In this document: piece by piece, positions 17,602-56,524 of the stretch | How the letters are laid out: the number at the start of each line of letters is the position of its first letter | Position numbering within the stretch: the stretch's first letter is position 1 | Assembly (NCBI RefSeq): GCF_003569915.1 | Contig: NZ_KZ984441.1 | Span: 124,001 to 188,000, forward strand | From: Comamonas testosteroni | GTDB taxonomy: Bacteria > Pseudomonadota > Gammaproteobacteria > Burkholderiales > Burkholderiaceae_C | DNA: 64,000 nt | Direction of reading: 5' to 3' | The notes under the pieces: model-generated | The model's input: only the letters and a program-made list of their open reading frames with translations | The model's database searches: none | What the model was told of the DNA's origin: nothing | Program-made: the position numbers and the translations under genes

Positions 17602-19029
<1,428 letters not shown>

Positions 19030-51270: not shown

Positions 51271-51837
51271 ATGAATAAGCTGAAATTTCCTGCATGTTTA
51301 GCCACAGGCGTGCTGATCAGCCTGCTGAGCCCAAATACTTTTGCACAGGCTGTGCAAAACAATTCATGGGGACTCTATCTCCAGTACGGAGTTGCCGAAC
51401 ATGGCACTGACACGCAGACCGCTGGCGCCATTCTTCCCTGGAAACACTGGAGCTACCCACTGGGCTCCGGCCAGCTGACAGGTTACTGGGACATCTGGGG
51501 CAGCCGCTGGGCCAGCGACTTTCAAAACGGCACCCGCTCGACCTGGGTCATCGGTGCCAAACCAACCCTGCGCTGGCGTGGCGCTCAGGGCCAGTCGCCT
51601 TGGTTCATCGAAGCTGGCGTGGGTGTGAGCTATGCCCTCAACCATCGCTACATGAACGACACCAAGGAATTTTCCACACGCTACAACTTTGCCAGCCACA
51701 TCGGCGTTGGCTACCTGTTTGGCCAACAGCAAAAAAATGAAATCAGCCTGCGGCTGGAGCACCAGTCCAATGCCGGCATCAAACATCCGAACCCCGGAGA
51801 AAATTTTCTGCAGCTTCGCTACGCGCACTACTTCTGA
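51271..51837 (+). CDS. pagL: Lipid A 3-O-deacylase, PagL family
   Basis: 188 residues with signal peptide (KFPACLATGVLISLLSPNTFAQ). Outer-membrane beta-barrel of about eight strands with alternating aromatics. Catalytic triad candidates His164 and Ser166 (EHQSNAGI) and Glu178 (NPGENF) have the same spacing as His126/Ser128/Glu140 of Pseudomonas aeruginosa PagL. Ends in an aromatic residue (YAHYF), a typical barrel terminus. Removes an acyl chain from lipid A. GGGAGG precedes the ATG. Confidence 0.88.
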   Translation: MNKLKFPACLATGVLISLLSPNTFAQAVQNNSWGLYLQYGVAEHGTDTQTAGAILPWKHWSYPLGSGQLTGYWDIWGSRWASDFQNGTRSTWVIGAKPTLRWRGAQGQSPWFIEAGVGVSYALNHRYMNDTKEFSTRYNFASHIGVGYLFGQQQKNEISLRLEHQSNAGIKHPNPGENFLQLRYAHYF

Positions 51838-51864
51838 ATTTCCTCTTCGCTCCCCAGAAACATC

Positions 51865-51889
51865 AAGCCACCTATCCGGTGGCTTTTTT
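51865..51889 (+). terminator. Intrinsic terminator
   Basis: Stem AAGCCACC / GGTGGCTT with a 5-base loop and T6, 27 bases after pagL; it marks the left edge of the AT-rich gap. Confidence 0.92.
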
Positions 51890-52072
51890 CATTTCTGAAC
51901 GGCCCAGACAAGCTGTGCATAAACATGGTGATAAAAACGGTCGAATTTTCGTGTTTTCCACAGATAGAAGCGACGCTTGCAAGTTGTGCCCAAATGCGAG
52001 ACATCAGCAGCCTCTATTCCGTCACAGACTTTCAATGAATTCAAGTGATTGATTTTTATTGTTTTTTTCTAT

Positions 52073-52119
52073 TTATCAACACTTAAGTGGGCTACTTACT
52101 ACTACTACTAATTAAAAAG
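52073..52119 (+). promoter_or_regulatory. Origin unwinding element 1: DnaA box, spacer, DnaA-trios
   Basis: TTATCAACA (52073-52081), an 11-base spacer containing GTGGGC, then TACTTACTACTACTACTA (52093-52110) followed by AATTAAAAAG. Read on the other strand the repeat is TAG-TAG-TAG-TAG-TAA, i.e. the DnaA-trio. Box, GC-rich spacer, trios and AT-rich DNA occur in the order known for the basal unwinding system of Bacillus subtilis oriC. Confidence 0.75.
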
Positions 52120-52502
52120 ATAAGAGTAGAAATAACAACTCAAGTGGAATTTTTCACAGCATACATTGACTCGTTGGACAAAAAAATGCCCGACACACAC
52201 AGGTCAGGTACTCCAAAAAAAAGACCACATCTCTGAAAAAGGATGTGTTCAAGCATCGATGGATCCGCTATTTGCTACTAAAAATATAGCTACATGTCTA
52301 TATGGAACATAGACTTCATTGCTTTTTCACTGCAAATCACGTTTGAAAAACAAATTGTTGATAAGCAGTAGTCAGATATTCAGATATCCACAGATTGGTG
52401 AGAAAAATAAAAGTTGTTCATGCCGGAAGAACAGTAGGAACAGGGTTTTGTCACCACCCTTTTCATCAAGATAACTACTTGATTTTCAATATTTTTATCA
52501 AG

Positions 52503-52550
52503 TTATCAACAGGTTTGAGCCATCTCTATTACTACGACTAATTTTTTATA
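52503..52550 (+). promoter_or_regulatory. Origin unwinding element 2: DnaA box, spacer, DnaA-trios
   Basis: TTATCAACA (52503-52511), a 15-base spacer with GAGCC, then TATTACTACGACTA (52527-52540) and AATTTTTTATA. Same direction as element 1, 430 bases away; the trio tract is less regular. Confidence 0.6.
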
Positions 52551-52809
52551 AAACTTCTAAAGAACAACCAGAAGCAAAGTCCTGGTTCCGCGCGAATGGG
52601 CTTGCCGTCAAGTCATCCAGTTCGCATGGAACCGTCCTCTTTCCAGAAAAAAGGGCTTTGAAGAAATTGACGCGCCTGAATTCAAAAATTTGGCGTAAGA
52701 TGCGCAGCCTTCAGGCAGACGATCTGGGGATAAGGTCTAAATCTCGAGGTCTGAAATCAATAGTTATCAACAGAATGTTATAAACAGATGGGGGTAACTG
52801 CGGAAGCGA

Positions 52810-53332
52810 ACCTCAGGGCTTGCCTTTCGGGGAGCGGCAGATCTGTATTCAAAAAAATTCAATGATCGTTAGTGCATTGTTTTTATTGAATTTTTTGTTT
52901 TTCATCACAAAATTCAGGCTCTCTGCTGGATGAAGTGGGTCTGGCAGACCTGCCTCGAAAGATGGACTTGGGCCTGCGGTGGAAAGCCATTGCCAGAGAC
53001 CAGACAGCCAGGAAATTGCAGCTATCAACAGCTTGTGTGTTGCAGCAGGACGTGATGTGCGGATATCGGGATGCCGCAGGCCTCGCACCATGCGCAGAGA
53101 CGGCTGTGTTAGAAAAATTACAAAAGCGGTAGGTGGCCTGGCACGGGCTGGTGCTGAGACGCAAGCGGCGCTGATCGCTTGAGATGAGTTGCCGGCGGAA
53201 CCTTGGCAAGGGCCTGCAGCGAGGGCTGGAAAGCCGCGTTGAATGGAGCAATAAGCTGCCTGTCCTCACAGCCGCTGAACATGGCGCGAGCAGCAGGTGC
53301 GACTGCTTCTTGCCATGCTCCAGCTCCAAGTT
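52810..53332. other. Gene-free stretch between the AT-rich origin and dinG
   Basis: Base composition returns to moderate GC. A CTATCAACA box lies at 53022. Short frames on both strands (for example 52935-53132 + and 52883-53329 -) have neither homology I recognise nor ribosome sites. It may contain origin-flanking sites, an RNA or the remnant of a gene; I cannot support any of these. Confidence 0.4.
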
Positions 53333-55495
53333 CTACACAGGCTGGCGCTGCAGTGTGAATGGCGGCAGCCCCTTGATGAGCAGCTGGCCATAGCTGGTCG
53401 TGGTCAGGCGACGGTCATAGCAGTACACATGGGCCTGGTCTTCCTCGGTACGGATGGCCCGCCCTACCCATTGCGCCAGGCGAATGGCGGTGGCGGGCAC
53501 CACCAGTTCATTGAAAGGGTTGCGGCCACTGCTGCGCAGCCATTCGGCGCGGGCCTCGCCAACCGGATCATCGGGCGGCGCAAAAGGCAGTTTGGTGATG
53601 AACAGGGATTCGCATAACGCGCCGGGCAGATCCAGACCCTCGCCAAAGCTCTGCATGCCGAAGATGATGGAGGGCTCGCCCATCTCCACGGCCTCACGGT
53701 GGCGCCTGAGCAAGGTCTGGCGGGGCAAGGCTGTTTGCACCAGCACCTGGTTGCGCATGCTGGTGGACAGCGCATCCACCGCCTGGCGCATCTGCTCGCG
53801 GGATGTGAACAAGACCAGCGCACCGGCCTGTACGCGGCTCAGATCGTTGAGCAGGGCATCGACCATCTCCTCGGTAAAGCGGGCCGCTTCGCGCGGGTCT
53901 GAGGCCGTTTCCCGGGCCACCAGCGTGCCTTGGCGGGCATAGTCGAAGGGGCTGGGCACTTCCAGCGTGGTGACGCAGGCGTCGTTGGCCAATCCGGCCT
54001 CGCGCAAGAAGAAGTCGAAATGTCCGCAACTGGTCAGCGTGGCCGAGGTCAGAACCGCGCCGCGTACCTGCGACCACAGGTGCTGGCGCAACGTGGAGCC
54101 CGGCTGTATGGGGCTGGCATGGGCCTTGACCACGATGAACTCACCATCCATCTCCAGCGTGAACCACTTGGCGTGGGGCACGGGTCGGCCTTCGCCCTCT
54201 TCTTCGCTTTGCTGCAGCAGCAATTGCGTGGTGTTGTAGATGGCTTCCAGCCGCGGAGCCAGCGCCCCGACCTGCGCGTAGATGGTGGAAAGGCGCCGCG
54301 CTTCTTCCGGTTTGTCCTTGATTTCGGCACGCAAAGCCTTGGAGACCGCACGCAGCGCATCCAGAAAGCCATCGGCATGGTGCGCAATCTGGCTCAGAGG
54401 CTCCAAAAGCGCCTCTGGCAGCACGCCGCGGGCTGCCCGTACCCTGGCAGGGCCATAGCTGTCCTTTTGCGATTTGAGCGCCTCTCCGTACTGCTCCATG
54501 ACCAGTCTGGCCAGCTCCTGCATCTGCTGGCGCAACTGGCCCGCGTGCTTGGGTACATCGGCCAGTTCCTCCACCTCGGCAACCGTGTTCACGCGCAGGG
54601 CACGGCTGGCCAGCTTGTCGATCCAGGTCAGACGGCTCAGGTCCATCTCACCGGCAAACTGGTCCAGTGCCGTCGCGGGCAAGTGGTGGGCTTCGTCGAG
54701 AACCAGCAGGCAGTTGTCCAGATCCGGCAGCAGCTTGGAGCCCAGAGAGGAAAGCAGCAAATCATGATTGGCAACAATGACTTGCGCGGCAACCAGGTCC
54801 TTGCGGCGCTCGTAGTACACGCAGTTGCTGAAAGCCGGGCAGTGCTTGCCTGTGCAGGACGCTGACTCGGCCGCCACGGGGCTCCAGGCATCAGGCTCCG
54901 GCGGGGTCTCCAGCGAATCCCGGTCGCCGTCCCAGGCCTCGGTGGCCAGCGCATCCGCCATGGATTTGTAGAACTGCATACGGGCCTGCAATTCGTGCTG
55001 TGGGCGGGCAGCCTTGGCCTGTGCCTGCTCCTCACCAAACAGGTCATCGGCCTCGTCCTGCACTTCGCCGGTACTGGCCAGACGCTCGAGCTTGAGCTTG
55101 CAGACAAAACGGCCGCGGCCCTTCGCCAGCGCAAATTTGAAGGGCTGATCGAGTTTTTGGGCCAGCGCGGGCAAATCCTTGTTCACCAGCTGTTCCTGCA
55201 GCGCCACCGTGGCGGTGGATATCAGCACCCGTGTACCGCGCGACAGCGCCATGCGGATGGCGGGGATGCTGTAGGCCAGCGATTTTCCGACTCCGGTTCC
55301 GGCCTGCACCACGGCCATGGCCCGGCGGGGCTCCGGGTCATCTTCATCGACTTTTCCGAGCTGGGCTTCGCTCAGCGTTTTCGCGACCTGGGCTGCCATT
55401 TTTCGCTGCCCCTCACGGCTGCGGAAACCCGGCATGGCCCCAACCACGGCATCAAAGGAATTCAGGGCCTCTTCAGTCCATTTTTTTTCATGCAT
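53333..55495 (-). CDS. dinG: ATP-dependent DNA helicase DinG (Fe-S, XPD-like)
   Basis: 720 residues (E. coli DinG 716). Walker A VVQAGTGVGKSLAY, four iron-sulfur cysteines (Cys132 in RGRFVCKLKL; Cys214, 219 and 225 in SCTGKHCPAFSNC), VANHDLLLSS, DEAH box LVLDEAHHLP, then motif IV-VI parts LFTSREQMRQAV, FGEGLDLPG and QWVGRAIRTEED. A 5'-3' superfamily 2 helicase that removes R-loops and helps forks cross transcription units. It stands alone between the two AT-rich origin-like gaps. No ribosome site is obvious. Confidence 0.93.
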   Translation of the reverse strand: MHEKKWTEEALNSFDAVVGAMPGFRSREGQRKMAAQVAKTLSEAQLGKVDEDDPEPRRAMAVVQAGTGVGKSLAYSIPAIRMALSRGTRVLISTATVALQEQLVNKDLPALAQKLDQPFKFALAKGRGRFVCKLKLERLASTGEVQDEADDLFGEEQAQAKAARPQHELQARMQFYKSMADALATEAWDGDRDSLETPPEPDAWSPVAAESASCTGKHCPAFSNCVYYERRKDLVAAQVIVANHDLLLSSLGSKLLPDLDNCLLVLDEAHHLPATALDQFAGEMDLSRLTWIDKLASRALRVNTVAEVEELADVPKHAGQLRQQMQELARLVMEQYGEALKSQKDSYGPARVRAARGVLPEALLEPLSQIAHHADGFLDALRAVSKALRAEIKDKPEEARRLSTIYAQVGALAPRLEAIYNTTQLLLQQSEEEGEGRPVPHAKWFTLEMDGEFIVVKAHASPIQPGSTLRQHLWSQVRGAVLTSATLTSCGHFDFFLREAGLANDACVTTLEVPSPFDYARQGTLVARETASDPREAARFTEEMVDALLNDLSRVQAGALVLFTSREQMRQAVDALSTSMRNQVLVQTALPRQTLLRRHREAVEMGEPSIIFGMQSFGEGLDLPGALCESLFITKLPFAPPDDPVGEARAEWLRSSGRNPFNELVVPATAIRLAQWVGRAIRTEEDQAHVYCYDRRLTTTSYGQLLIKGLPPFTLQRQPV

Positions 55496-56524
55496 TTCAG
55501 CGTTTTTTCAGACGCAAAGACGCTGTGCTTTGGCGTTTTATAAGTATTCGTACAGAGATATGTATCAAATAAGATGAAATTTCTTATGTGATACAGCATA
55601 CAAATTGCAGGATTTGTATGTTCTACAGCTGTATGAAAGACGAGCTTTTGTAGAACTTTTCCACTGCTTGTATGAACCTTATCCATTGTAATTGTGGATT
55701 CCCTGGTGTGAAGTTCTCAAGAAACTTATCCACAGAACGGCATCGTATTCACGCTGTGAGTAGCCTGGATATAAGGCTGTGCAAATCTATGTTTGTAATG
55801 TTGTTAAATTTTTATGAATAAAAAACTTTTTCTGAATTTTTGACTTATTGATCCGTTTGAGCAGAAACCAAGTTCTCCAGTGCTGTAGATAAGTTTGTTC
55901 ATGCATAACTTTGCTCTGAAATGGCTTGAAACAAGCTATTTATCCACAGATATGCGTCAAGGCACTGAGTGTGAATGCTGTACGGGCTTTTCCCACACCG
56001 TGGTGTGGTGGGCTTGCTTGCCTCGAAATCAGTGCCTGCGCTGTGGAATGTCAGCTTGGGCCTCCGGATTTGTCCACCACGTGGACAAGTCATTTGCTCT
56101 GTTTTTAATAGTGGATATCCAATGATTTATATGGACTTGAGGCTGTTTTTGATCAAAATTTTGCGCTTTACGGCAAAGCAGATCTGCGCCTCTGACTGAG
56201 ACTACTTTAAGTACTCATGTATGAAAAAATACATGAAATTTGCCTGTTTTTTAGGCACTCAGGCCTTGGAGAGGCAGAAATGCTGAAATTTCAGGCAATC
56301 GGTGCCTGCCAGCGCCAAATTGGTGGTTCTGGCGGCTGCTGAAATTGGCTTTGAGTTGGCGAGCCAGACTTTTCAGGCGTCTGCACCGCCCATCGCCCTT
56401 ACCAAACCGTAATGCATGCGTCATCCACGCAGTCAGTCTCAATTCCTAGCATGGCGTCATCACTGGAAGTGAAGGTGTCTTCAACTCGCCCTTTGCTTGC
56501 CGGTCCTGGAACAAAGGGTGAACG
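55496..56524. other. Proposed replication origin, part 2 (AT-rich gap with perfect DnaA boxes)
   Basis: About 1 kb without a supportable gene. Perfect TTATCCACA boxes at 55726-55734 and 55940-55948; TTATCTACA on the minus strand at 55884-55892; two opposed TTGTCCAC words form a palindrome at 56070-56088. A cluster of inverted repeats lies at 55562-55656. No DnaA-trio tract seen here. The short frames 55895-56125 and 55926-56108 lack ribosome sites and homology. The promoter of the efflux operon must lie near the right end. Confidence 0.55.
55562..55656. repeat. Stacked inverted repeats
   Basis: Three consecutive dyads: GTATCAAATAAG / CTTATGTGATAC (11 of 12, 9-base spacer, 55562-55594); CATACAAAT / ATTTGTATG (perfect, 6-base spacer, 55597-55620); GTTCTACA / TGTAGAAC (perfect, 21-base spacer, 55620-55656). 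TGTATG words recur at 55615, 55630 and 55669. Confidence 0.8.

Follow-up and report, generated by a model that had tools for sequence, protein, structure and literature searches.

The chromosomal replication origin (oriC) of Comamonas is very likely a region in which two origin modules, each complete, follow one another in the same direction. The presence of two modules, their rigid geometry, their persistence among relatives, and their coincidence with the minimum of GC skew are shown by sequence and comparison. The likely joint explanation is an oriC composed of two tandem same-direction modules; the binding of DnaA and IHF to them and the melting of DNA are inferred. The DNA analyzed (the window) is a 64-kb stretch corresponding to positions 124001 to 188000 of contig C3 in a 4.94-Mb draft genome of 92 contigs.

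The origin gap (51838 to 52882) is flanked by a 188–amino acid (aa) open reading frame (ORF) that ends at 51837 and by the next ORF of at least 90 aa, which starts at 52883; the ORF list contains no ORF of ≥90 aa between them. Eight DnaA-box–like words with no more than one mismatch to TTATCCACA are located in 0.9 kb of this gap, starting at 51914 (minus strand), 51954, 52073, 52356 (minus), 52384, 52503, 52725 (minus), and 52764. In the whole 64 kb, 23 such words were observed compared to 5.05 expected, a count reached in 0 of 100 shuffles of the same 64 kb. The criterion of DnaA boxes clustered above chance, as for a chromosomal oriC, is met.

Two copies of the box TTATCAACA are each followed by exactly 14 nt, a triplet run, and an A/T-rich tract. 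Both elements face the same direction (plus strand) and are separated by 430 bp. The triplets read CTA, which corresponds to 3′-GAT-5′ on the opposite strand. Matches to TACTACTAC (≤1 mismatch) occur 10 times in the window compared to 0.78 expected, and 5 of the 10 are at the two trio sites. When the whole genome was searched with the pattern TTATCMACA-N14-YTAYTAYTAYKACTA (≤2 mismatches), these two elements were the only matches; the same pattern read backwards gave none in the 4.94-Mb genome. Both elements meet the BUS criterion (a box with ≤2 mismatches at ≤16 nt from at least three trios), with spacers of 14 nt and 15-nt trio runs. By stability, the 50-bp windows starting at 52093 (which holds the trio and tract of module 1) and at 52459 (with the IHF-type site and box of module 2) rank third and fourth from the bottom in the 64 kb.

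The original prediction, made from the sequence alone, had described a gene-free, A/T-rich stretch of ~0.9 kb with about eight DnaA-box–like words, in which a box, a spacer, a triplet run, and an A/T tract occur twice in the same direction 430 bases apart. All of this held, and the 14-nt spacer is exact in both copies. The description of the triplets held in part: they had been read as TAC/TAG at 52093 to 52110 and 52527 to 52540, while the runs are of CTA and located at 52096 to 52110 and 52526 to 52540. The claim that both elements unwind remains an inference.

Table 1. Features of the twin origin region in window coordinates. R1 is a sequence-only module profile (model length 235) built from 54 modules; both window modules were among these 54 rows, so their R1 scores are not independent.
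Feature	Coordinates	Strand	Evidence or remark
Origin module 1 (upstream), complete	51911..52134	+	Profile R1 match 111.3 bits, E 1.2e-32
Module 1 inverted DnaA box A TTATGCACA	51914..51922	-	Offset -159, in 29/29 dereplicated genus origins
Module 1 direct DnaA box B TTTTCCACA	51954..51962	+	Offset -119, 29/29 genus origins
Module 1 IHF-type site CAAGTGATTGATT (consensus YAANNNNTTGATW)	52042..52054	+	Offset -31; no binding data
Module 1 unwinding-element DnaA box TTATCAACA	52073..52081	+	
Module 1 14-nt spacer with GTGGGC	52082..52095	+	
Module 1 DnaA-trio run TTACTACTACTACTA	52096..52110	+	
Module 1 A/T-rich tract	52111..52136	+	
Origin module 2 (downstream), complete	52344..52570	+	Profile R1 match 95.7 bits, E 7.3e-28
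Module 2 inverted DnaA box A TTATCAACA	52356..52364	-	Offset -147, 29/29 genus origins
Module 2 direct DnaA box B ATATCCACA	52384..52392	+	Offset -119, 28/29 genus origins
Module 2 IHF-type site TAACTACTTGATT	52472..52484	+	Offset -31; no binding data
Module 2 unwinding-element DnaA box TTATCAACA	52503..52511	+	
Module 2 14-nt spacer	52512..52525	+	
Module 2 DnaA-trio run CTATTACTACGACTA	52526..52540	+	
Module 2 A/T-rich tract	52541..52570	+	
Third DnaA-box group, without trio: inverted 52725, direct 52764 and 52778	52725..52786		
Local minimum of cumulative GC skew, contig C3	52644		

What is duplicated goes beyond the unwinding element and comprises an entire origin module, upstream boxes and IHF-type site included, which extends the original prediction. 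As shown by sequence and comparison, the module is a rigid unit of ~225 bp consisting of an inverted box (offset −159 or −147), a direct box (−119), an IHF-type site (−31), a box, a spacer, a trio, and an A/T tract. Offsets were surveyed in 133 distinct elements from the loci collected, many of them closely related. DnaA-box counts around these elements form sharp peaks at −119 on the same strand and at −159 or −147 on the opposite strand. A same-strand box at −119 (≤2 mismatches, three offsets allowed) accompanies 128 of the 133 elements, and an opposite-strand box at −159/−147 (≤2 mismatches, 19 offsets allowed) accompanies 129; the background for a same-strand box is 0.006 per position. The IHF-type site at −31 was detected with zero or one mismatch in 82/133 elements compared to 1 of 2261 background positions. 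Sites at this offset were named by their match to YAANNNNTTGATW, the IHF consensus. Both window modules match it exactly, and the E. coli–type criterion of an IHF-consensus site beside the DUE-proximal box is met by sequence match, without binding data.

The geometry is retained in 29 dereplicated origins of the genus, among which only those with both elements were counted. The inverted box is located at −159 in the upstream module and at −147 in the downstream module in all 29, and the spacing of the two elements is 417 to 439 (428 to 430 in 22 of the 29). Helical phasing was considered as the cause of this spacing, and no claim was kept; shared descent accounts for it equally well. In 18/29 origins, manual reading also revealed the third box group past module 2, in which an inverted box (+210 to +243) is followed 38 to 39 bp on by a direct box. 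Separately, a piece of the DNA between the modules (52267 to 52337) has ~50-bp matches (83 to 92%) on two other contigs, at C42:3152-3200 and C56:8839-8889, and is possibly a small dispersed repeat within the origin.

The assignment of this region as oriC rests on comparison with relatives, since the skew minimum lies at the elements, and not at dnaA, in five of six of them. In these five genomes of the genus, the minimum is inside the elements or no more than 0.3 kb from them, and dnaA is 17 to 269 kb off. The values are as follows: in G037, a minimum at 251284, modules at 251451 to 252106, and dnaA at 168842 (82 kb off); in G029, a local minimum of a 60-kb stretch at 2654023, modules at 2654024 to 2654680, and dnaA at 2635922 (18 kb off); in G017, a minimum at 129621, modules at 128760 to 129340, and dnaA at 641 (128 kb off); in G041, a minimum at 555758, modules at 555400 to 555975, and dnaA at 824530 (269 kb off, outside the stretch used); and in G047, a minimum at 18122, modules at 17797 to 18454, and dnaA at 397 (17 kb off). 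The sixth relative, G010, is ambiguous, with the minimum at 1852321, 26 kb from modules at 1825.8 to 1826.4 kb. In G047, nine 8-kb samples plus the ends were positive in skew between 20 kb and 2.0 Mb and negative between 2.4 and 4.12 Mb and on round to the origin. In G029, 27 samples placed a sign change at the modules, but the arms are unequal and the sign is disturbed at 2.54 to 2.58 Mb.

In contig C3 itself, the 20 kb preceding the modules have a skew of −0.063 and the side to their right one of +0.058, and no sign change was found at dnaA. The far end of the contig is deeper than the origin (a cumulative skew of −3092 at 281320 compared to −3032 at the modules). Because the genome is in 92 contigs, the draft leaves the whole-chromosome skew unsettled. 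When 20-kb stretches of 20 other family genomes were assessed, a far shorter view than in the genus, the minimum came within 1 kb of a module in 11 of them and lay farther away in the other 9. Overall, the skew minimum in close relatives supports the claim of a chromosomal oriC, with the replication start and DnaA binding remaining inferred. Two of the checks set in advance by the original prediction came out in its favor: the minimum lies at the modules, not dnaA, in close relatives, and the elements are present at the same place, beside dinG, in relatives.

The origin had also been predicted not to lie beside dnaA, and this held. The dnaA gene (C3:196298-196780, minus strand) is outside the window, at window coordinate 72.3 kb and 19.7 kb past module 2, so that the criterion of a dnaA-linked origin (adjacent to dnaA) is not met. 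A position away from dnaA is the usual one in Comamonas, as shown in the genus genomes compared; this, too, extends the prediction. The mnmG and rsmG genes, a parA-like gene (under its model cut-off), and a parB-family gene are found at 35.9 to 41.8 kb of the window, and three parS-like 16-mers (37460, 39036, and 40144) are within this mnmG-rsmG-parA-parB region, 12 to 15 kb from the origin. Such genes together with parS-like sites are a usual neighborhood of an origin. The DinG protein encoded in the window (53333 to 55495, minus strand) is 93% identical to DinG of Comamonas testosteroni JL40, which places the genome in Comamonas.

An alternative explanation is that the modules form a regulatory cluster of DnaA boxes, i.e., a datA- or DARS-like titration or activation locus, with the origin elsewhere, e.g., at dnaA or at 55.4 to 56.5 kb. 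In its favor, perfect DnaA boxes are also present at 55726 and 55940 in an A/T-rich gap, and dnaA is 19.7 kb distant. Against it, five relatives have their skew turn at the modules, and no turn was seen at dnaA in the four of them whose stretch includes that gene (G037, G029, G017, and G047) or in our own contig; an origin at dnaA was rejected on the absence of a turn in these sequences. A scan of C3 revealed no trio at 55 to 56 kb, only a weak half-module match (E 0.0067). We consider this alternative very unlikely. An origin in the gap at 55.4 to 56.5 kb was rejected as well, there being no trio in it and the local skew minimum being at 52.6 kb.

This second A/T-rich gene-free gap (55400 to 56520), upstream of dinG, has features of its own. 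In addition to the two perfect boxes and, at 55902 to 55970, the half-module R1 match, it contains two 50-bp windows (55803 and 55537) that are less stable than any other in the 64 kb; there is no trio in it. Its dinG-side part is ~77 to 80% identical over ~450 to 560 bp in C. testosteroni–like loci. The gap may possibly be a site of DnaA titration or reactivation.

Within the genus, the TTATCMACA-N14-YTAYTAYTAYKACTA pattern was found once or twice per genome in 43/53 genomes, and in 0/53 when read backwards. The R1 profile finds modules in 52 of the 53; in 51, manual reading of the match list revealed two same-strand modules whose starts are within 0.5 kb of each other. The exceptions are G034, which is 85% complete and in which dnaA was also not found, and G026, in which the matches are on two contigs and one is weak. 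Weak extra matches were observed in G015, G016, and G021. In a tree with the 29 genus origins, upstream modules form one clade (support 0.979) and downstream modules another (0.812); therefore, the pair predates the genus. Consistently, mean module identity is 0.485 within a genome compared to 0.615 (upstream) and 0.586 (downstream) between genomes, and like-position identity exceeds cross-position identity in 353/406 genome pairs.

These data bear on the possibility that the second module arose by a recent chance duplication without selection. No supporting point was found for it. Against it are the within-genome identity, which is below both between-genome values, the two separate clades in the 29 origins, and the pair in 51/53 genomes, and this explanation is all but excluded. 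Among 58 loci fetched via dinG, 18 contain two modules, 1 contains one (at the locus edge), and 39 contain none, the absences covering only the fetched flanks (up to 6 kb) and not the rest of the genomes. Loci with two modules include those of C. testosteroni ATCC 11996, C. terrae, C. suwonensis, C. aquatica, C. avium, C. denitrificans, Delftia acidovorans, and D. tsuruhatensis; no modules were found in the flanks of ≤6 kb in C. kerstersii, C. granuli, or Acidovorax and Simplicispira species, among others.

Outside the genus, the strict pattern matched 135/397 genomes of the family (GTDB rank) and missed 262/397, and many have one module or none. By hand count, 47 family genomes have two or more same-strand matches, some far apart. 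Same-strand spacings include 267 (G159), 323 (G062), 372 (G055), 611 (G223), and 1189 (G353), and wider ones of 3249 (G309), 4186 (G117), and ~9.1 to 9.3 kb (G256, G056, and G060); some pairs were discounted as too widely spaced (35 kb in G397). One match on each strand was found in four genomes of genus g38 (G198, G272, G333, and G384) and in G302. In the tree, like positions cluster for g77, g84, g66, and g5/g9. In g11, g78, g102, and g117, the two modules of one genome cluster together, and the pair there is therefore newer or homogenised.

When the order was searched, 200 of 349 genomes matched R1 at E ≤0.01. Among the 13 listed f7 genomes that R1 matched, 12 carry at least two modules on one strand, and four (G494, G682, G742, and G661) have three same-strand R1 matches 0.36 to 0.78 kb apart. 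A box and a trio are present at all three modules in G682 and at two of three in G494 and G661, G742 having been outside this inspection. Family f44 has outward-facing pairs 1.2 to 3.5 kb apart (G611, G634, and G678), and most of these matches stop before the trio. In the class search (n = 141), R1 matched 47 genomes, 42 of them once. Since class matches are mostly single, the single module appears older than the order, and its multiplication is commonest inside the order. Module absences are soft because the filters used lose weak matches.

By analogy with known origins, in each module DnaA would fill the inverted box (−159/−147), the direct box (−119), and the box adjoining the unwinding element. 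A bend at the IHF-type site (−31) would bring the upstream boxes back against the last one, and DnaA would spread across the 14 nt to the CTA triplets (3′-GAT-5′ on the bound strand) and open the A/T tract. Binding of both proteins and melting are inferred. Both modules would most probably assemble DnaA and be able to melt. The downstream module is predicted to be the obligatory helicase-loading site, and the upstream module a second, cooperating unwinding site of variable use that may decay to a plain DnaA-box array.

This division of labor is our reading of trio losses and of skew in wide-spaced relatives. In G017 (L269) and G041 (L278), module 1 keeps its boxes but lacks the trio, while module 2 keeps it. 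In six more genomes (G015, G018, G019, G021, G023, and G030), the R1 match of module 1 stops at 179 to 183 of 235; judged from model coordinates, these probably also lack the module 1 trio. The second trio is therefore not universally needed, and module 2 can suffice. Skew was compared in six relatives with modules 3 to 9 kb apart, using short stretches and with confounding by gene orientation. It is negative before module 1 in all six and positive after module 2 in five, and four of them have the minimum of the 20-kb stretch no more than 0.6 kb from module 2; in G256 it is near module 1, and in G117 it is past both modules. Minima 2 to 9 kb past module 2 were observed in G117, G353, and G221. 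Between the modules, skew is close to zero (−0.001, 0.000, and −0.020) in three relatives whose two complete modules are ~9 kb apart (G056, L206; G060, L207; and G256, L205) and left arm–like (−0.05 to −0.06) in three spaced by 3.2 to 4.5 kb.

The same data can be read as a bipartite origin with one working unwinding element, in which module 2 melts and module 1, likened to oriC1 of H. pylori and B. subtilis, is a looping DnaA-binding array with a relic trio. The loss of the module 1 trio with retention of boxes in G017 and G041, and probably in six more genomes, speaks for this reading, as does the skew minimum at ≤0.6 kb from module 2 in 4/6 wide-spaced relatives. Against it, the trio and 14-nt spacing of module 1 are kept in the 29 dereplicated pairs (albeit chosen for having a trio), and 46/62 genus elements carry the IHF-type site with zero or one mismatch. 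Because a relic would be expected to drift, a relic trio is disfavored, and we consider this reading possible but less likely than not.

It is also possible, though again less likely than not, that two redundant or separately firing origins lie side by side, either module being sufficient alone. Neither module lacks a part, as boxes, an IHF-type site, and a trio are present in both, and the near-zero skew between modules in the three ~9-kb relatives would be expected if both fire. In contrast, left-arm skew between modules at 3.2 to 4.5 kb looks as if module 2 alone fired. Both arguments from inter-module skew are confounded by gene orientation over short stretches. A bolder view is that each chromosome origin in bacteria of the order contains two separately working unwinding sites, or as many as three in one family, with an ancient distinct pair in the genus and kilobase-spaced modules acting as two neighboring, used origins. 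The evidence falls a little short of favoring it, and two cooperating modules, with the downstream one obligatory, remain our preferred reading.

Compared to known systems, each element is similar to the B. subtilis BUS (PMC8287927 and PMC6669920), with a box, a spacer of ≤16 nt, at least three trios, and an A/T-rich tract in the same order on one strand. Unlike published BUS, they occur as a pair in one origin, and separate upstream boxes and a separate IHF-type site accompany each of them. The rule of one BUS per origin, a reporting rule in PMC8287927 and not a defining property, is not met, since two are present in the genome. The BUS survey was restricted to the best candidate, so that >99% of genomes ended up with a single one (PMC8287927); because about one candidate was kept per genome, pairs would not show in it. 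As in the bipartite oriC of H. pylori and B. subtilis (PMC8235120), there are two DnaA-box clusters able to interact across the DNA between them. In those bacteria, however, dnaA lies between the clusters, and oriC2 is the part for which the unwinding element is described (PMC8235120). Neither bipartite criterion is met here: dnaA does not split the subregions but is 19.7 kb beyond both modules, and a trio is present in both window modules and not in one subregion only.

The left half of E. coli oriC is arranged as DUE-R1-IHF-R2, with R1 pointing to the DUE, and is away from dnaA. The Comamonas origin resembles it in the distance from dnaA and in the IHF site near the DUE-proximal box. E. coli oriC has one DUE only and is not known to contain a second same-direction module or a CTA-trio run. 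Burkholderia cenocepacia belongs to the same order as Comamonas. The origin region of its chromosome 1 likewise has dispersed DnaA boxes, an IHF site, and an AT block (PMC4948915); the exact origin was left uncertain by the authors, and, unlike for Comamonas, no twin module is described in the relevant passages of PMC4948915. BUS elements and origins away from dnaA are already known. No description of a twin unwinding element per origin was found in the literature searched, which mostly excluded subscription papers and preprints. In that literature, nothing comparable turned up to complete unwinding modules paired within one origin, a trait that is conserved throughout a genus and recurs in the order.

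One-candidate-per-genome searches hide origins with several elements. The R1 module profile provides an origin finder for an order in which the main origin of at least one species is uncertain (PMC4948915). The way in which two helicases come to sit on opposite strands of a single bacterial origin has been described as unclear (PMC10201434), and same-direction twins, the outward-facing pairs of family f44, and the lineage that lost a trio form a comparison set for this question. Most origin models assume a single DNA-opening site, and nearly all species of the genus examined carry twin modules.
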